Source: Bacteroidota bacterium (GTDB taxonomy: Bacteria > Bacteroidota > Bacteroidia > Chitinophagales > Saprospiraceae). Taken from it: DNA of 64,000 bases. Below are positions 3,140-30,989 of this stretch, piece by piece. Under the pieces are notes generated by a model that ran no database searches, was not told the DNA's origin, and saw only the letters and a list, made by a program, of their open reading frames with translations. The translations under genes and the position numbers were made by a program. The stretch lies in NCBI GenBank assembly GCA_029781865.1, contig JAKOVW010000081.1, forward strand, positions 186,001-250,000. The letters run 5' to 3'. Every line of letters starts with the position of its first letter. The stretch's first letter is position 1.

Positions 3140-3592
3140 TCACTCCTTATTTTTAGTATCTATAAAAATGGTTACCGGACCATCGTTTATTAATTCAATG
3201 TCCATATCTGCAGCAAATACACCTGTTTTTATTTCTCTTTTTAATCCGTTTTCCAATTCCTTATTAAATAATTCATATAATTTTTTGGCAACGGAAGGTT
3301 CAGCGGCCTGACTAAATCCGGGCCTGTTGCCTTTTTTTGTGCTGGCAAATAAGGTAAACTGACTGACTACCAATATTTCTCCGTTTATTTCTTCTACATT
3401 CAAATTCATTTTTTTTTGTTCATCTGAAAAAATTCTCAATTGCATGATTTTTTTACTCAGCCAGCTGATATCTTCCACGGTATCAGTGTTCTCGACACCA
3501 AGAAAAACGAGCATACCCTTACCTATTCCGGAATACCGGGATTGTTCTATAATAACACTGGCCGATTTTACCCTTTGCAGGAGCGCTCGCAT
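3140..3592 (-). CDS. dtd: D-aminoacyl-tRNA deacylase
   Basis: A 150-residue protein of standard DTD length that hydrolyses D-aminoacyl-tRNAs (and Gly-tRNA-Ala), recycling mischarged tRNA in the cytoplasm. It starts MRALLQRVKSASV, as in the family. The active-site motifs are SQFTLFAST (Ser-Gln-x-x-Thr) and the Gly-cisPro-type loop in DGPVTIFIDT. It is the first gene of the minus-strand operon that runs to the left edge of the window. The AT-rich region to its right separates it from the divergent ctaA. Confidence 0.93.
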   Translation of the reverse strand: MRALLQRVKSASVIIEQSRYSGIGKGMLVFLGVENTDTVEDISWLSKKIMQLRIFSDEQKKMNLNVEEINGEILVVSQFTLFASTKKGNRPGFSQAAEPSVAKKLYELFNKELENGLKREIKTGVFAADMDIELINDGPVTIFIDTKNKE

Positions 3593-4046
3593 ATTTTTTT
3601 AAACATTAGTCTTTTTAATCACGCTTAAAAGTATGAAAATCAAAAGCAATTTAAAAACTATTCCTGTTTAATTACAAGGGTTTATCAACACTTGTCCTGT
3701 TTTTTCAGAATTCATCCAAAATATTCAAATGATTCACCTTCCTTTTAGGGGTTCTGTTTTAAAACTGTGCACTTTTAAACATATAATCAACAATTGAGCA
3801 ATAGCCGTTTTTTAGTTATTAACTTATTCACATACTATAAAAACTACTCTATTAATTTGTCCTGTAATTAATTAAATTATGAAAACCTTGTGGAAAAATT
3901 GTTTATAACCCTCTTTTCCTATGTTTTTAACTTTTCACTATTGCTTAATTAATTCATCTGTTTTTTATATTTTAATAAAGAATATAATAAAGGAGAGAAT
4001 GGAATGTTGAAAAGCAGAATTGAAATTTAATGTTGACTTTTGTGCC
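3593..4046. other. AT-rich divergent intergenic region with DnaA-box-like 9-mers (candidate oriC)
   Basis: This roughly 450-base gene-free region lies between divergent dtd and ctaA. Three DnaA-box-like 9-mers occur within 216 bases: TTATCAACA (3682-3690), TTATTCACA (3824-3832, an exact TTATNCACA match) and TTTTCCACA (minus strand, 3889-3897). The stretch after the last box (about 3900-4000) is extremely AT-rich, as expected of an unwinding element. The 8-mer TTGTCCTG occurs twice (3692-3699, 3857-3864). It may equally be an ordinary divergent promoter region. A parS-type site at 27982 supports proximity to an origin. Calling it oriC is inference. Confidence 0.35.
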
Positions 4047-5111
4047 ATGATTTTTGAGCGGAAAAATAAAATTATTGTGCTTTGGCTTTGGTTGGGATTC
4101 GCGATGATTCTCATTCAAATTTTATTAGGTGGAATAACCAGGTTGACGGGAAGTGGTTTAAGTATAACCAAATGGGATATTGTCACCGGAATTGTATTTC
4201 CGGTTGGTGAGCAAAAGTGGAACTATTATTTTGATCTTTATAAACAAACCCCACAATTTCAGAAAATAAATCAGGACATGAATTTGGAACAATTCAAATT
4301 CATTTTTTTCTGGGAATATTTTCACAGGTTATGGGCAAGACTAATGGGATTGGTTTTTGTCATTCCGTTTCTGTTTTTTCTATTTAAAAAATGGCTTGAC
4401 AAAACAGCAATCAAACGCTTGATTATTGTTGTATTGCTTGCTGCATTTGTCGCGTCCTTAGGCTGGATTATGGTTGCAAGTGGCCTTACGCAAAGGCCAT
4501 GGGTTAATGCGTATAAACTTTCATTTCATCTGCTGGCTGCAGTTCTGTTATTATCCTATTTGTACTATACCATTATAAAAACGCAGGAGGTTTTTTCTAT
4601 AAAAAGCAGACCGAAAGAAATCAATGGCTTACTTCTAATTTTGATTTTCCTTACGGTATTTCAAATCTTTCTTGGTGGAGTAATGGCGGGTATGAAAGCT
4701 GGTTTGGCAGCACCAACATGGCCTAAAATTCAGGGTAATTGGATACCTGATCAGATTTATCAATTGACGTCAATTGATAATTATCTTTTTACGGAATATG
4801 AGATTTCACATACGGGACCAGTTGTCGTGCAGTTCTTTCACCGATCGGTAGCCTACCTGATTTTCGCATTGATCATCTGGTTTTGTTATAGCGTTTTTAA
4901 ATGGAGTAATCGTGTTCAATGGAAAGTACTTGGACTATTGATGATCTGCTTATTTCAGGTATTCATTGGGATATGGACGGTGATTCATTGCATAGGATAT
5001 ATCCCTTTATGGCCAGCAGTGATTCATCAGTTATTTGGAATCTTATTATTAATATATATACTAGGGCTATATTTTAGGTTTGAGCTGGTTAAAACTAATA
5101 ATCAAGGCTAA
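4047..5111 (+). CDS. ctaA: Heme A synthase, COX15/CtaA family
   Basis: This integral membrane enzyme (about 354 residues, eight predicted helices) oxidises the C8 methyl of heme O to give heme A for aa3-type cytochrome oxidase. Hallmarks are GGITRLTGSGLSITKWDIV, EYFHRLWARLMG, FFHRSVAYL and VIHQLFGILLL, including the conserved helix-borne histidines. A TTG in the same frame at 4020 would add nine residues; I prefer ATG 4047, because the first helix then follows at once. Two tiny ORFs precede it (4004-4030 and 4030-4050), the second overlapping this ATG as ATGA. The gene stands alone; no oxidase genes are nearby. Confidence 0.9.
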   Translation: MIFERKNKIIVLWLWLGFAMILIQILLGGITRLTGSGLSITKWDIVTGIVFPVGEQKWNYYFDLYKQTPQFQKINQDMNLEQFKFIFFWEYFHRLWARLMGLVFVIPFLFFLFKKWLDKTAIKRLIIVVLLAAFVASLGWIMVASGLTQRPWVNAYKLSFHLLAAVLLLSYLYYTIIKTQEVFSIKSRPKEINGLLLILIFLTVFQIFLGGVMAGMKAGLAAPTWPKIQGNWIPDQIYQLTSIDNYLFTEYEISHTGPVVVQFFHRSVAYLIFALIIWFCYSVFKWSNRVQWKVLGLLMICLFQVFIGIWTVIHCIGYIPLWPAVIHQLFGILLLIYILGLYFRFELVKTNNQG

Positions 5112-6022: not shown

Positions 6023-6559
6023 GTGGATTTAGACAAGATCATACAAGGAAGTCTTCAGGGAGATCGTATCAGCCAGAAACAACTGTTTGATCGCTTTTCA
6101 GGGAAAATGTTAGCGGTTTGTATGCGCTATGCAAAGCATCAAATGGAGGCTGAGGACTTGCTTCAGGATGGGTTTATAAAAGTATTTACCAACCTTGATC
6201 AATATAAATCAGAAGGTCCATTCGAACAATGGATCCGGAGAATAATGATTAATAATGCCATAAAAAACTGTCACAAGAAGAGTTTTCAAAATGAATATTC
6301 AGCTGGAGATGACATTCCTGAAATGTTTGAAGATCCGGAAGTAATTGAGAGTATGGCAGAAAGGGAGTTAATCAGAATGATAAACGAATTACCTGATGGT
6401 TATAGAATGGTGTTTAACCTGTATGCCATTGAAGGTTATTCACATAAAGAGATTAGTGAAGCTTTGAATATTGAAGAAAGCACCTCTAGGTCTCAGTTAG
6501 TAAAAGCAAGAAAAGTATTACAGGACAAATTGTTAAAACATCAAAAAGAGATTATATGA
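6023..6559 (+). CDS. ECF-type RNA polymerase sigma factor
   Basis: A 178-residue sigma-70 factor of the ECF class. Region 2 is visible in EDLLQDGFIKVFTNLDQY with a following W-I-R-R. Region 4 is in LPDGYRMVFNLYAIEGYSHK and the helix-turn-helix EISEALNIEESTSRSQLVKA. The start is GTG at 6023, because an in-frame stop (TAA at 6005-6007) excludes a longer product. Its 3' end overlaps the next gene by four bases (ATGA). That neighbour has a cytoplasmic tail and one membrane helix, so it is the likely cognate anti-sigma factor. The target regulon is unknown. Confidence 0.9.
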   Translation: MDLDKIIQGSLQGDRISQKQLFDRFSGKMLAVCMRYAKHQMEAEDLLQDGFIKVFTNLDQYKSEGPFEQWIRRIMINNAIKNCHKKSFQNEYSAGDDIPEMFEDPEVIESMAERELIRMINELPDGYRMVFNLYAIEGYSHKEISEALNIEESTSRSQLVKARKVLQDKLLKHQKEII

Positions 6560-7968
6560 ATGTATCTGGACAAGGGAATTGGATGGACAAACTATTTCAC
6601 AAAAAGCTTTCCGGTTTTGAAATAAGTCCTGAAGATCATATTTGGGAAGGTATCGCCAGAAAACTGGATGAATCCCAAAGAAGACCAGGCCTTTTTGGGG
6701 GATGGTGGACAATTCTATTGTCTGTTATTATCACACTTCTAGTAATTGGAGCCGGTGCATTCCTGTTTTACAAAAAGACATTTAAACCAAACCGGGATCT
6801 GAATCCAAACCGGGATTTACCATATACACCAGTGCATACTGATGTTGAAAATACAGTATATGCACCTTCTGAAATGAGATCCATTCTTACTACTCCTCAG
6901 TCTGCATCTAAACGAAGTAAACAAAACGATAATAAATCAGTCCTGATTCCATCAACAGCGAAAGAAGTCAACCAGGTTGTTAGCATGCAGACTCCGGCAC
7001 AATCAAAAATCACAGAATCCGCTACAGAAATTACTGCCCAAAATTCAAGTCTGGCATTAAGCATTCCGGTAATAGCAGATCAATTGAATCCGAATGAATT
7101 GATTGCTTCTTCTGATAAAGATTTTTTTACCAACGCACAAATAACAAATAAAGCATTTTCTTATTCCTACCTTCCTTTGAAAGAAAGTTTTCTGAAAAAA
7201 GACAATCAAAAGTTTTCTTCATCCATGAAGTTTGTCGATGGATGCAACGTATACAGAAATAACAAATCTCATTTTTTTCTTGACATTTATTATGCACCGG
7301 AAATTGCAAGCAGGACTCTTGAATCAAAAGATCCTGCGCTTCAGCAATATGTAGATGAGCGTGCCCATTCTGAAAGACCAATATTGTCCTACAGCATGGG
7401 TGTTAAAGCATCCCTGGTGTTCGGCAATGGATTCACAGTACGTACAGGTTTGAGTTACTCCAATAATTCAGAGCGTTTTGATTACATTAAGGAAACGCAA
7501 ACAATCACTAAAGAAATTAAAGATCAAAACGGAAATGTGATTAAAACAGAAGTTTCCGAATTGATCATCATGGATAAAATATACAATAGCTATAAATATC
7601 TTGATATACCTGTATTGTTGGGTTATGAAGCAGACCTGAAAGATTTTGTGTTGTCACTGAATGGTGGTATTGGAATCAATCTCAGCGCAAGCCAGACTGG
7701 TAAAATTTATAAAGACACTAAAAACCCAAGAAGTTTCTATTTACTGGAATCCAATGGAGAAGCAAACGGACCCATTTTCAGAAAGAATGCCGGAATCAGT
7801 TTAATTAGCAGTATAGGTTTCAATTACAAATACAATGAACGTATTATGTTGCTCTTTGAACCTTCTGCAAGATATTATTTGCACTCGCTTTCCGATCCTT
7901 CAAATCCTATTAGTCAAAATTATTTATTCCTTGGAATGAACGTTGGAATGAGATACAGGATAAAATAA
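6556..7968 (+). CDS. Anti-sigma-like single-pass protein with C-terminal beta-barrel-like domain
   Basis: This 470-residue protein is translationally coupled to the ECF sigma factor. Residues 1-47 are a soluble N-terminus with a helical ISPEDHIWEGIARKLDES motif, typical of Bacteroidota anti-sigma tails. A membrane helix follows (about 48-70, TILLSVIITLLVIGAGAFL), then about 140 residues rich in Ser, Thr, Gln and Pro. The C-terminal ~250 residues have alternating hydrophobic strands and a final aromatic pattern resembling an OMP_b-brl domain. There is no N-terminal signal peptide. It could bridge the inner membrane to the outer membrane, signalling barrel state to the sigma factor. That topology is inference. 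Confidence 0.75.
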   Translation: MNVSGQGNWMDKLFHKKLSGFEISPEDHIWEGIARKLDESQRRPGLFGGWWTILLSVIITLLVIGAGAFLFYKKTFKPNRDLNPNRDLPYTPVHTDVENTVYAPSEMRSILTTPQSASKRSKQNDNKSVLIPSTAKEVNQVVSMQTPAQSKITESATEITAQNSSLALSIPVIADQLNPNELIASSDKDFFTNAQITNKAFSYSYLPLKESFLKKDNQKFSSSMKFVDGCNVYRNNKSHFFLDIYYAPEIASRTLESKDPALQQYVDERAHSERPILSYSMGVKASLVFGNGFTVRTGLSYSNNSERFDYIKETQTITKEIKDQNGNVIKTEVSELIIMDKIYNSYKYLDIPVLLGYEADLKDFVLSLNGGIGINLSASQTGKIYKDTKNPRSFYLLESNGEANGPIFRKNAGISLISSIGFNYKYNERIMLLFEPSARYYLHSLSDPSNPISQNYLFLGMNVGMRYRIK

Positions 7969-15124: not shown

Positions 15125-16120
15125 TCATCTGGAACGATCATCTTCATACCATGCAGTGATCATATCTCTTCCAATCTGATTCTTGTATTTATTGCCGGAT
15201 GATGTTTTTATTTTTTGCAGCCAATCCAGTTGCCTGGGAGAAAAAACATGTTCACAGGATTTACCATCCGCTAAATAGCTATTAGCCCTCGTGGCCTGTA
15301 AAGGTGTCATAGGAATATATTTAAAATCTGTATGTGATAAATAATATTTGGTTTCTGTATCCATTCGGAACTTACCGGGTTTTTGCGAAGGAATTCCTGC
15401 CTTGAGGTTTGTCGGATTTTCTGTAAATAATATATCTGCTGAATTATTCATTTTACCTGTTTTAACCAGTTCATTCAGATTTGTTTCCTTAGGATTATAA
15501 TAGATGTCAACAACTTCAGATCCATTCATATAACCTGCATTGGTTGCAATTACTCCGTTAATCTGTCCATATGTTTTTTCACCGGCCCAAAAGCAATACA
15601 TGCCAATGGTAGTATGCTCTAATCCGGTTTGATAAGCTTTGAGCTCTTCTTCCAGTAATTTTAAATATTGAGGAACGGTAATTCCCATTTTGATTAAACT
15701 CGCGTTGATTTTGCTGATCAGGCCGTAATCGGAATAGTTTCCATCCAGTCGTTCGACAATGGGTTTTAAATTCGAATCAACTATTCGGACAACCGGATTA
15801 TTCCAACTGGGTTCGAAAAAATAATCAAGTGCTTCGCGATCTGTTCCGCCTTTATTATTGTGTATACAGAGAGGGACGAAGTACGTTTCAATTGCCTCTA
15901 CAATGAGTGGATGACTCAGCACCTTTGAACCGTAATTTTTACAGGTGGAACAACCAGGAACCTCCTGGAATAATATAAGAACAGGTTTATTTAATTTAAT
16001 TGCCGTCGATTGGGCTTCTTTAAGGTTTCTGATCCATTTGACTTTTCCCAATTCAATATCACCTGCTTTGATGATCAGGCATTGAATGAATGATATGCAA
16101 ATAATTAAAATCGTTTTCAT
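15125..16120 (-). CDS. Secreted thioredoxin-like / MsrA-like fusion protein (VPGC-x-x-C type)
   Basis: This 331-residue protein has a signal peptide (about 1-19). A thioredoxin-like domain follows (about 20-130) whose redox site is LFQEVPGCSTCKNYGSKVL, with CxxC in a VPG context. The second half (about 165-270) resembles methionine sulfoxide reductase A: GMYCFWAGEKTYGQINGV aligns with the MsrA GCFWG...GV pattern, and EVVDIYYNPKETNLNELV with its EVVxVxYDP motif. The canonical GCFWG is altered to YCFWAG. It may repair oxidised methionine in the envelope; that is inference. Similar proteins are grouped as VPGUxxT thioredoxin-like (seleno)proteins, here with Cys. No TGA codon lies in the motif. 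Confidence 0.7.
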   Translation of the reverse strand: MKTILIICISFIQCLIIKAGDIELGKVKWIRNLKEAQSTAIKLNKPVLILFQEVPGCSTCKNYGSKVLSHPLIVEAIETYFVPLCIHNNKGGTDREALDYFFEPSWNNPVVRIVDSNLKPIVERLDGNYSDYGLISKINASLIKMGITVPQYLKLLEEELKAYQTGLEHTTIGMYCFWAGEKTYGQINGVIATNAGYMNGSEVVDIYYNPKETNLNELVKTGKMNNSADILFTENPTNLKAGIPSQKPGKFRMDTETKYYLSHTDFKYIPMTPLQATRANSYLADGKSCEHVFSPRQLDWLQKIKTSSGNKYKNQIGRDMITAWYEDDRSR

Positions 16121-26904: not shown

Positions 26905-27540
26905 ATGAATATTAAAGCATTCTGTTTCAATCCATTTTATGAAAATACATATATCCTCTACGAGGATCACGGTGAAGCATGGATTTTTGATCCTGGTTGC
27001 TCCAATCGGCAGGAAGAAAGGGATTTGTCTGCATTTATTAATGATCACAAAATAACCCTGACCCGACTATTGCTGACCCATGCCCATATTGACCATATAT
27101 TGGGCTTGAATTTTATTTTTAAAGAATATTCTTTACTACCGGAACTCCATAATCTGGAAGAACAGGTTTACAATTCTGCAATGCAAGTCGCACAAATTTA
27201 TGGTATTCCCTTTGATGGAACTCCGAAATTAGGATCGTATATTATTGATAATCAAATAATTAAGTTTGGCAATCAAAATGTATTGTGTATTTTAACTCCA
27301 GGACATAGTCCCGGAAGTGTGAGTTTTTTCCTAAAGGAGCAAAAAATATTGATATCTGGTGATGTTTTGTTTGAAGGAAGTATTGGCAGAACTGATCTGC
27401 CTGGAGGGGACTATAATACATTAATTCATAGTATAAAATCAAGATTGTATCCATTGGGAAATGACGTAATCGTTTATCCGGGTCATGGCGGACTGACTAC
27501 AATAGGTCAGGAAAAATTGACCAACCCTTTTTTAAATTAG
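26905..27540 (+). CDS. MBL-fold metallo-hydrolase (glyoxalase II-like)
   Basis: A 211-residue cytoplasmic metallo-beta-lactamase-fold enzyme. Zinc ligands are visible in LLTHAHIDHILG (HxHxDH), LTPGHSPGSVSFF, ISGDVLFEGSIGRTDLPGGD and VYPGHGGLTTIG. The set matches the short glyoxalase II-like hydrolase group (YcbL-type), which hydrolyses thioesters such as S-lactoylglutathione analogues. The true substrate is unknown. It is a single gene, divergent from 23663-26881 (23 bases between starts). Confidence 0.88.
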   Translation: MNIKAFCFNPFYENTYILYEDHGEAWIFDPGCSNRQEERDLSAFINDHKITLTRLLLTHAHIDHILGLNFIFKEYSLLPELHNLEEQVYNSAMQVAQIYGIPFDGTPKLGSYIIDNQIIKFGNQNVLCILTPGHSPGSVSFFLKEQKILISGDVLFEGSIGRTDLPGGDYNTLIHSIKSRLYPLGNDVIVYPGHGGLTTIGQEKLTNPFLN

Positions 27541-28389
27541 TTTTGACCTGACTTATTATTTTAAATTGAGGATTAAAACACAGTTTGAAATCTTTAGATC
27601 TATTAAAATATAGTGTAGTACAACAAGCCTGGATTGGTTACTCCGGGCTTCAAAAGGGATGGTTGACTTAAACTAAAAATACTTAAGCTCTTATTGGGTT
27701 GAGAGTTCTCTAAAATACAATCCCGTCTATGACCGCTTCATTGGGTTGATTAATCTGAATGGTCTTATAAGTTTATTGATTTTTAGATATTTTCTTACGG
27801 TTATCTATAATCATGTTTAATTGAACTCTGTTTAGCGTTACCAATAAAGCGGCATCTATTCATAGACTTATACATTTAAATGGTTGTCAGAATGACTCTT
27901 TTTGCAGTATGGCTACTATTGATAACCCAAATTTTTCCGGGCTCAGAGCAATAATTTAGGAGAAGGCTAATTTTGGGTAATTAAAATAGTTCCACGTGGA
28001 ACTATTTTATAACTTATTGATATTCTATAATTTACATTGTAAAAGCTGATAACCCAGCAAAATCAGATGAAGATGTATTCAAAAAAGGGCGGGATATACA
28101 GTTTAAGAGCAAATACCGTCCAATAAAGGTCTTCTAAACCGTAGAGATTTAAATTCAATGGGATAAACTGATATTTTGCTACCTATAATTATTCATCTGG
28201 TTGGGTAAAATAAAAAGAAATGGAGTTTAAGGAGAGACCAGGTAAAAGAAAGCAGAATCAGAAAGCCATTGCAGGTTATGCAAATACTAAATTTGGGAAT
28301 GAAGTATAAGTCGAAACTTAGAATTATTCCGATATGAATTAAGAAGAAGATTGTAAGGAAAAGTCAAATATGTGAGCCGGGATAAGCAA
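27541..28389. other. Gene-free region carrying a parS-type site
   Basis: About 850 bases without a convincing gene in any frame; the longest frames are short and without motifs. A hairpin-capable pair AAGCCTGGA/TCCGGGCTT lies at 27625-27650 with no T-run. The 10-mer TGATAACCCA occurs at about 27914 and 28047. The outstanding element is the perfect palindrome at 27982-28009. The right end (28220-28309) holds a 29-codon frame of no support. Confidence 0.6.
27982..28009. promoter_or_regulatory. parS: parS-type centromere site (ParB-binding palindrome)
   Basis: This is a perfect 28-base palindrome centred between 27995 and 27996. Its core GTTCCACGTGGAAC (27989-28002) matches the chromosomal parS consensus of many bacteria. 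B. subtilis has the same layout with TTTCACGTGAAA, and several phyla use the TTCCACGTGGAA form. ParB-CTP clamps load at parS and spread to organise and segregate the origin region. Only one copy was noticed in this window, and parA/parB are not here. Intergenic location and perfect symmetry make chance unlikely. Confidence 0.85.
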
Positions 28390-29442
28390 TTAGCTTCTTT
28401 CCATTACCCATTTTGCCACGCTCGGCGCCAGCTCTTTTTGAGATTTAGCACCAACAAAAACACCTATGTGTCCACCTGGAAAAGCATAGAGTTGTTTATC
28501 GGTACTGCCTATATGATCCATAACAGCTTTAGTGGATTCGTTGGGAATGATGTTGTCTTCTGTGGCATAAACATTCAAAAATGGGACTGTCATTTTTTTA
28601 AGGTCTACTTTTTTGCCATCCATTTCAAATGTGCCCTGTATCAGTTTATTATCCCGGAATAAGTCTTTGATATACTTGCGATACATTTCACCGGATAGGT
28701 CTGGACAATCGTTTTTCCATTTCTCCATTCTGAGAAAATTCATCAATTTGTCTTTATCCCCTAACATGTCCATAACTCCAAAATATTTGGCTATGTCCAT
28801 ACTCGGCTTCAACATACTAAATGCTGAGTTCATCATTTCAGCACTGATGACTCCTTTGCTGTCTACCATGGTATCAACATCCACATACTTGGTCCACTTA
28901 TAAAGCATATTGCAATGGGTGTCAGTGAAATCATACGGTGCCACAAAAGTGGTAAGCGTTTTCAGTTTTTCAGGATAGATGGATGCATAAATCATACTGA
29001 ACAAGCCACCCTGGCAAATGCCCATTTTGTGGATCTTATTGACCTGATGTTTTTGTCTGATAAAATCAATGGCATTATTTAGATATCCAAGAATATAATC
29101 TTCCATGGTCAGATATCTGTCTGCCCTGGTTGGATAGCCCCAGTCCATGATATAAATGTCCAGTCCTTCTTCCAATAACTTTTTCATCAGGGAGCGATCG
29201 GGTTGAAGATCCAGGACGTCATGGCGGTTCATGATAGCAAAAGATACCAACACTGGAATTTTACATTTAGGTGGTGTTTCTCTGATGTAATGGTACATTT
29301 TTACTTTATCGCATTCCCAAACCAGTTCTTTGGGTGTGTTTGCAACCACTACTTCTCCGATATCCTTCAATGTTTCATAACCTTTTTGAAGTTTTTCGTT
29401 CGCTGTAAACAGCTCATTGTATATAGACTTGGTATTTATCAT
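28390..29442 (-). CDS. phaC: Class III poly(3-hydroxyalkanoate) synthase, catalytic subunit PhaC
   Basis: This 350-residue enzyme has the length of class III PhaC. It polymerises (R)-3-hydroxyacyl-CoA into storage granules together with PhaE. The lipase-like box with catalytic Cys is KMGICQGGLFSMIY (G-x-C-x-G-G). The catalytic Asp is in NVYATEDNIIPNEST and the His in FPGGHIGVFVG. Upstream on the same strand lies phaE, separated by a terminator-like hairpin and a fresh -7 element at 29462-29469. phaC may therefore be transcribed both by readthrough and from its own promoter. Confidence 0.92.
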   Translation of the reverse strand: MINTKSIYNELFTANEKLQKGYETLKDIGEVVVANTPKELVWECDKVKMYHYIRETPPKCKIPVLVSFAIMNRHDVLDLQPDRSLMKKLLEEGLDIYIMDWGYPTRADRYLTMEDYILGYLNNAIDFIRQKHQVNKIHKMGICQGGLFSMIYASIYPEKLKTLTTFVAPYDFTDTHCNMLYKWTKYVDVDTMVDSKGVISAEMMNSAFSMLKPSMDIAKYFGVMDMLGDKDKLMNFLRMEKWKNDCPDLSGEMYRKYIKDLFRDNKLIQGTFEMDGKKVDLKKMTVPFLNVYATEDNIIPNESTKAVMDHIGSTDKQLYAFPGGHIGVFVGAKSQKELAPSVAKWVMERS

Positions 29443-29461
29443 TTTAATAATTTAGAATTTG

Positions 29462-29469
29462 CAAAAATA
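29462..29469 (-). promoter_or_regulatory. Candidate phaC promoter -7 element (TATTTTTG)
   Basis: The minus strand reads TATTTTTG 19 bases before the phaC ATG, overlapping the T-tract of the preceding hairpin. Confidence 0.4.
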
Positions 29470-29497
29470 AAAAAAGCCCGAAGAAGATTCAGGCTTT
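29467..29497 (-). terminator. Terminator-like hairpin between phaE and phaC
   Basis: On the minus strand AAAGCCTGAA (29497-29488) pairs with TTCGGGCTTT (29482-29473), with one G-T wobble and a five-base loop. A T-rich tract follows. It lies after the phaE stop and before phaC, so it could lower phaC expression relative to phaE. Confidence 0.65.
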
Positions 29498-29531
29498 CTG
29501 CTTTTTATAAAACGTAGTAGATAGATTCTTC

Positions 29532-30989
29532 TCATTTCTTTTTGGAAGTTGCTTTGGTTTCTTCAATTTTTTCAGATGGATTAAGCTTTCTTTCAAGTTG
29601 GCGGTACATTTTCTTTAAATCATAGAGGCTCTTGTAAACTTCATCCATTTCACTACGCGTAGCCACGGGTAGATTTACAAAAAACATTTTTTCCATTTGC
29701 AAATCAACTTCCTGTTTGATTTTTAACTGAAGACTGTTGACTTCAGTCATCAATTTGCTGTATTCATCACTCTGAAATAAAGTACCATAAACTTCATCGC
29801 CCGTCATTAACCAATCCTGAAAAATTTTGATAATGCTTTCAATACTTTCTCCTTTCTGGATTTTAGAGCTTACATTCTGAGCAACATTTTCCATAACCTT
29901 TATTCCATGTTGATACATCATGTATTGCAACTCACTGTTCTTAATATTGAATTGCAGCATATTGTCATAGATTTCATTCCAGATTTTAGCCTGTTTTACA
30001 TTGCTGTTTTCTTCTACAAGCCTTGATAATGGGGACACTGCTTCGTTCATTGCTGTTCTCCAGTTTGAATACATTTCCATCATCTGATTAAATGGATTTG
30101 AATTCATCCACGGATTATTTTGCATTTGTGACTTAAAATTCTGATAATAATTCATGCTCTGCTCACTGAATTGCTTCATGTACTGAATGAAGTTATGGTT
30201 GAATTGTTCCATTGACTTTTTGGACTCATCCGGCATGAAATGAAAAAACTTATCAATGAATTCTTTATATTTTTCAGGATTCAAAAGTTGTCTGAAAATA
30301 TCCAAATTGAAATTTTTGTCTTCAATATTTTTAAACATTGGTACCCATAATTCATAGAACTTGGAAAGGCTTTCGTTCATTTGATTCATTCCTTTAAATG
30401 AATCTGCAGCGGTCAGATTGGAAAATTTTTTCCACCAATCGCCATAACCGGAATTCATCAGATCAAAATATTGCTTTGCATAATGACTCCATTGATTCAT
30501 TCCTTCATGCATTTTATTTTGCATGGTAGCCATTGAATTATTGTTCATCATATTGAATAATGGACTTGTGTTCATGGCATTCATCCATTGACCATTATTC
30601 TTTGACATAAAATTTTGCCAGTTATTCATCCAATCGTTTGGATTTGGCGATATGGACGAATTTGCCATGCTATTATTTGCATTAAACACACTCTTAGCCC
30701 AATGCATTTGGTTGTCAAACCATTGTTCAAAATAGTTTTTGGTATTTTCTGAATTTTGATTCATTTCTTTTGCGGTTTCGTTGATTGTATTGTTTGTTTT
30801 TTCAATAAATTCTGCTGAAGTATGAGCGATTTCTTTGAATAATTTATTCCCCTTATCCAGAGTTTCATTTACAAATGGAAGGTCTTTTGTAAGTTTTTTC
30901 GTCGTTTCAACAACCTGGTCAACAACATTGGACTGGGTTTCTATCATTAAATCTACAAGATTTTTTGAATTGTTGTTATTCGTTTCCAT
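29532..30989 (-). CDS. phaE: PhaE-like subunit of class III PHA synthase
   Basis: A 485-residue hydrophilic protein rich in Asn, Met, Gln, Trp and Phe. It opens with phasin-like amphipathic helices (LVDLMIETQSNVVDQVVETT). A repetitive Asn/Met/Trp central region follows (about 95-200). The C-terminal half resembles PhaE, with EIYDNMLQFNIKNSELQYMM and a closing basic coiled coil EVYKSLYDLKKMYRQLERKL. PhaE activates PhaC and sits on granules. It is longer than usual (about 350), the excess being mainly the phasin-like N-terminal part. Position beside phaC and opposite phaJ supports the call. Confidence 0.8.
   Translation of the reverse strand: METNNNNSKNLVDLMIETQSNVVDQVVETTKKLTKDLPFVNETLDKGNKLFKEIAHTSAEFIEKTNNTINETAKEMNQNSENTKNYFEQWFDNQMHWAKSVFNANNSMANSSISPNPNDWMNNWQNFMSKNNGQWMNAMNTSPLFNMMNNNSMATMQNKMHEGMNQWSHYAKQYFDLMNSGYGDWWKKFSNLTAADSFKGMNQMNESLSKFYELWVPMFKNIEDKNFNLDIFRQLLNPEKYKEFIDKFFHFMPDESKKSMEQFNHNFIQYMKQFSEQSMNYYQNFKSQMQNNPWMNSNPFNQMMEMYSNWRTAMNEAVSPLSRLVEENSNVKQAKIWNEIYDNMLQFNIKNSELQYMMYQHGIKVMENVAQNVSSKIQKGESIESIIKIFQDWLMTGDEVYGTLFQSDEYSKLMTEVNSLQLKIKQEVDLQMEKMFFVNLPVATRSEMDEVYKSLYDLKKMYRQLERKLNPSEKIEETKATSKKK

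Follow-up and report, generated by a model that had tools for sequence, protein, structure and literature searches.

A predicted chromosomal parS site within reach of a candidate replication origin in a Saprospiraceae genome

A 28-base palindrome was found in the 64,000-nucleotide stretch of Saprospiraceae DNA analysed here (the window), and its 14-base core, GTTCCACGTGGAAC, is predicted from sequence, with high confidence, to be the chromosomal parS site of the genome's own ParABS system. This prediction is based on the presence of the core as a single conserved copy, its location 24 kb from the GC skew minimum of its contig, and genes encoding a ParB with parS-type residues, a ParA-type protein and ScpA. 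The site resembles chromosomal parS sites in having a palindromic core with a CACGTG centre, few copies, a location near the inferred oriC and ParAB encoded in the same genome. It is a well-supported new example of a well-known device, with the predicted origin in the same window. The features concerned are collected in Table 1.

Table 1. Positions of the parS-related and origin-related features, counted from the first base of the window.
Feature	Position	Strand	Basis
dtd, D-aminoacyl-tRNA deacylase	3140..3592	-	TIGR00256 and PF02580 above cut-off
Predicted oriC, dtd-ctaA divergent gap, 427 bp, 24.8% GC	3593..4019	none	Skew minimum, DnaA boxes, gaps of relatives
ctaA/COX15, heme A synthase	4020..5111	+	PF02628 above cut-off; NCBIfam equivalog below cut-off
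MBL-fold hydrolase gene, left neighbour	26905..27540	+	PF00753 above cut-off; NCBIfam matches all below cut-offs
849-base intergenic region holding the palindrome	27541..28389	none	Gap between convergent genes
28-base palindrome; the 7 bases on each side of the core probably form a terminator-like stem	27982..28009	none	Repeat and fold
Predicted parS core GTTCCACGTGGAAC	27989..28002	none	Exact match, single copy, shared with relatives
Class III PHA synthase subunit PhaC gene, right neighbour	28390..29442	-	TIGR01836 above cut-off

A parS-type core in an intergenic palindrome

The palindrome was reported earlier in a sequence-only reading of this DNA, and the repeat was confirmed as perfect, its arms TAAAATAGTTCCAC and GTGGAACTATTTTA being joined with zero spacer. 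No longer perfect palindrome without a spacer was present in the window or in the whole 351-kb contig from which the window was taken (C60). On the basis of base composition, arms of at least 14 bases are expected by chance 0.0006 times per window and 0.045 times per genome, and the exact 14-base core 0.00008 times per window and 0.006 times per genome. The surrounding gene-free region, previously put at about 850 bases, is the second largest gap in the window when ORFs of at least 60 aa are placed. The flanking MBL-fold hydrolase and PhaC genes are convergent and the palindrome is located downstream of both. The region 28390-30989, adjoining the parS gap, comprises phaC and a probable phaE (class III polyhydroxyalkanoate synthase), the latter with a Pfam score above and an NCBIfam score below the cut-off. 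The Rfam search of positions 27400-28500 (E<=1) yielded two matches, both far below the gathering scores and treated as chance. Elsewhere in the window, a search for a further, degenerate parS revealed only one match with up to 3 mismatches, at position 15938, against 1.25 such matches expected by chance.

The core was said to match known chromosomal parS sites, and the match is exact. With respect to the chromosomal consensus as it appears in an excerpt of PMC7022226, TGTTNCACGTGAAACA, the outermost pair of the published 16 bases is T...A and here it is A...T. The search of the 4.52-Mb genome (93 contigs) for the 14-base core, as had been proposed, gave a single copy and no scatter of many copies; five further sites were found within 2 mismatches, each with exactly 2.

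The exact core was present in 83 of 148 genomes (own included) against 1 of 148 for a reversed-pattern control, and the core with Y/R variants, GTTYCACGTGRAAC, in 122 of 148 (own included) against 7 of 148 for the reversed control. Two copies were found in 84 of the 148 genomes, in contrast to the one copy detected here; 26 genomes had none, 19 had one, 11 had three, 6 had four, and five and six copies were found in one genome each. Among 20 relatives picked for few contigs or long contigs, 17 carried sites, with all copies in each of them located on one contig within a span of at most 5.7 kb. Copies on two contigs were observed, among the matches listed, in G081 and G103.

In the 26 genomes from which the Y/R core was absent, one-mismatch sites occurred in 16, compared with 18 for the reversed control; because the control was at least as frequent, one-mismatch matches alone carry no meaning. 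In the same-genus genome G006, 97% complete and with ParB present, no core was detected, not even with 1 mismatch. Four copies of GTTCCACATGGAAC, with an altered centre, were located on one contig of G053 and may represent drifted parS. Clustered one-mismatch sites with altered centres, possibly drifted parS, were seen in G053 and likewise in G030, G115, G102 and G133, which also lack the standard core. Their clustering is the one feature that suggests drift, the control being frequent as well.

Outer arms of the palindrome and the terminator question

The earlier reading called the 28-base palindrome parS-type. The symmetry is real, but the conserved parS comprises the inner 14 bases only. 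At 79 sites with a symmetric core, the first four flanking pairs matched in 66, 53, 46 and 37% of cases versus a background of 29%, and by the fifth flanking pair the pairing was at background. Sites near locus ends and repeated flanks were left out of the symmetry, ORF-setting and extra-pair counts, and cores that are not self-complementary were additionally left out of the symmetry counts.

Five or more extra pairs were found at 11 of 121 sites, the window's included, versus a mean of 0.76 and a maximum of 6 after re-pairing (5,000 shuffles). These extended sites favoured convergent gene pairs (5 of 24 versus 6 of 97, Fisher p 0.04), and TTTT was observed at the stem end of 8 of the 11 versus 20 of the 110 others, with slightly different windows being measured in the two groups. 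Extended arms are most likely to be terminators built around parS. In the window palindrome, however, the T tract sits inside the stem, and termination at this site is putative. The longest such structures were perfect palindromes of 44 bases (L210:18656) and 40 bases (L144:10035), in which parS forms the tip and which, with their A/T tracts, have the look of two-way terminators.

A bidirectional intrinsic terminator between convergent genes, with the core matching parS by accident, could be considered as the sole function of the palindrome. The convergent flanks would suit such a role, as would the predicted RNA hairpin (-13.5 kcal/mol for either strand, with z values of -4.3 and -5.5) and the location of the G004 site 13 bases from the end of a neighbouring gene. 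It is the core, however, and not the arms, that is conserved across genera and families, and among the 121 distinct sites (own included) 48 are located inside ORFs of at least 60 aa and only 24 between convergent ORFs. Termination also requires no closeness to the origin, and a simple terminator scan did not call the palindrome. A terminator with an accidental core is therefore highly improbable.

Even less probable is that the palindrome serves as an operator for a palindrome-binding transcription regulator controlling the MBL or PhaC gene. The perfect dyad, the large intergenic region and the PHA genes nearby could be expected for an operator, but the palindrome is situated downstream of both flanking genes, and the sites in relatives are found beside other genes or within genes, often near the ctaA region.

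The dtd-ctaA gap as a candidate origin

The cumulative GC skew of C60 had its minimum at 189,958, corresponding to window position ~3,958, and rose thereafter; the gene-strand-corrected third-position skew was lowest at 189,260 (window ~3,260). None of 10,000 gene permutations gave a minimum as deep, and the bootstrap 95% interval was 183,250-194,529. The parS core is located at C60:213,989, and the 24 kb separating it from this point refers to the minimum of one contig in a 93-contig genome, not proven to be the global one. The raw minimum lies inside the divergent gap between dtd and ctaA, which is the candidate oriC. Two exact DnaA boxes only were present in it, TTATTCACA (3824) and TGTGGAAAA (3889), whereas its homologues in many relatives are rich in such boxes. 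Inside the nearby ctaA gene, a 24-base perfect palindrome, TTATCAATTGACGTCAATTGATAA, was noticed at 4757-4780; among the fetched loci, its inner 16 and 12 bases were found in the own genome only.

The sequence-only reading had placed the window near oriC on account of the palindrome. The distance to the contig's skew minimum agrees with this placement, but the site is not near dnaA or parAB, which lie on other contigs. In this respect it is unlike the known chromosomal ParABS systems compared.

The skew of two relatives agreed with this placement. G069 consists of a single 7.5-Mb contig; within a 400-kb stretch of it, the skew was lowest at 2,349,196, a point immediately upstream of ctaA and inside a cluster of five DnaA boxes, and parS was found at 2,363,789, 14.6 kb away. 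Twenty skew samples taken round this chromosome mostly agreed in sign and were noisy, two of them giving no value. The G069 record begins at dnaA (position 427), 2.36 Mb from parS, and parB is located at 5.79 Mb. In G108, the sample up to 1.337 Mb and the one from 1.357 Mb onwards differ in skew sign, and parS (1.347 Mb) falls between them (within ~20 kb); dnaA is located at 0.92 Mb and parB at 2.08 Mb. Both genes are far off in both genomes, and therefore neither of them marks the inferred origin. The location of parS within reach of the inferred origin is thus supported in the own genome and in these two relatives. The sampled skew of G064 had no clear sign change at parS. A very compact origin-centromere layout was seen in this genome (L095:14975-15363), where two parS sites are interspersed among ten DnaA boxes in a stretch of under 600 bases. 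The orientation of rRNA, used as an origin-versus-terminus test, gave a match in only 1 of 5 genomes.

Six clusters of at least 4 DnaA boxes per 600 bp were identified in 2.41 Mb of fetched sequence, from which the window, L072 and loci shorter than 9 kb were left out of the scan. All six were located in parS-bearing or adjoining stretches, which by our tally make up about one fifth of the 2.41 Mb.

Named genomes were also scanned by ctaA alignment and the best 80 of 538 loci were used, 66 not labelled as Flavobacteriaceae or kin and 14 so labelled; this survey is not wholly independent of the genomes used above, as at least 2 records apparently overlap (L188/G007 and L189/G038). Within the fetched flanks of up to 10 kb, parS was detected in 28 of the 66 non-Flavobacteriaceae loci and the control in none of the 66, the 28 being a lower bound with many loci ending early at contig ends. 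Where each of the two flanks was 8 kb or longer, parS was present in only 17 of 35 loci. The own genome's site, 24 kb off, would be outside the reach of such flanks. In the 66 loci, 56 of 57 parS sites were downstream of the ctaA start, DnaA boxes reached 2.99 per kb in the up to 800 bases upstream of ctaA versus 0.20 elsewhere, and dtd, seen in 35, was always upstream of ctaA within 5 kb. In the 14 loci of Flavobacteriaceae or kin, parS was found in 1 and the box densities were 0.27 versus 0.14 per kb.

Within the genus, two positions of parS relative to the dtd-ctaA gap were observed. In the window and in G004, G005 and G007, parS is located between the MBL and phaC genes, ~21-26 kb from the gap. 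In G001 and G002 it lies ~4 kb from the gap, and in G003 ~4 kb from ctaA, dtd not being on that contig; in all three it is found beside a homologue of window 6556-7968. Four species of the genus (own included) are thus in the far state and three in the near state. The near state (up to ~8 kb) is probably ancestral, because it was also found in G033, G040, G051 (by dtd and boxes) and G062.

The placement of the origin assumes a leading-strand G excess for the clade, and most genes to the right of the C60 minimum are on the minus strand, which is opposite to the expected leading direction and unhelpful to the origin reading; the same two points would suit a skew sign change that marks the terminus, with a terminus-linked palindrome, but the DnaA-box clusters of relatives at or near the same place and the parS-type character of the remaining features make this very unlikely.

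ParB, ParA and ScpA, and the proposed segregation system

A ParB gene was expected in the genome and is present. The ParB_N domain was found once, in a 296-residue protein that also possesses HTH and C-terminal dimerisation domains, and its gene, at 91.7 kb on contig C79, adjoins one encoding an AAA_31 ParA-type protein. At E<=1e-20, ParB_N was detected in 136 of 148 genomes. Compared with solved chains, the own ParB matched ParB, Spo0J and Noc, and KorB more weakly. Its top NCBIfam score, 228.7 bits, was obtained with the Noc model, above the general ParB score and below the Noc cut-off of 315; a cut-off was passed only for the general ParB/RepB/Spo0J domain.

According to the excerpt of PMC7383237, Noc shares the fold of ParB, and its NBS site is a related palindrome. 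Four positions defining ParB/Noc specificity were taken from that excerpt and counted by hand on the alignment to Noc. At positions 173, 179, 184 and 201, the own ParB has R-Y-K-G versus Q-K-K-R in Noc. The R and G are described there as absolutely conserved in ParB and the K at 184 as permissive, and the parS-type specificity residues R 173 and G 201 are thus present in the own protein. A Noc/NBS identity was rejected, with Noc-type residues absent (R/G instead of Q/R at 173/201) and the Noc-model cut-off not reached.

A search of 20 genomes detected the ScpA gene in 19 of them, the own genome among these, which makes SMC-ScpAB condensin loading at parS plausible here. By comparison, two gut Bacteroidetes are given as lacking a known condensin in the excerpt of PMC10197239. 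The study concerned dealt with 12 mouse-gut species, these two among them, and likewise used parS clusters and GC skew to place ori; its remark in the same excerpt that ori does not always coincide with dnaA refers to the 12 species jointly.

In the proposed mechanism, a ParB dimer would bind the 14-base core, close as a CTP-bound clamp and spread along the neighbouring DNA. Replication would start at the dtd-ctaA gap, after which ParA would pull the origin region apart, and ParB may additionally load SMC-ScpAB condensin. The AT-rich outer arms are probably without ParB contact and would most likely serve the convergent MBL and PhaC genes as a two-way terminator whose tip carries parS. A broader proposal, put forward tentatively and doubtful as a whole, is that the dtd-ctaA gap is the origin of the family, unlinked from dnaA and parAB, that parS shifted by ~20 kb within one genus, and that it was repeatedly captured at the tips of bidirectional terminators, one palindrome then possibly serving both termination and segregation.

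The native parS sites of Saprospiria had been described as little studied. Among the matches listed in the open-access literature, no study was found on Saprospiraceae parS or on Bacteroidetes parS, most subscription papers being outside the scope of the search; no open-access paper was found on the Saprospiraceae origin of replication with dnaA.

As a sequence-based marker of the origin, parS would serve a large group, for the most part uncultured, where dnaA guides poorly. Now that a site and a ParB can be named and an oriC is predicted, chromosome segregation in Saprospiria becomes testable, and the layout with parS inside a putative terminator poses the question of whether ParB loading disturbs termination or needs it.
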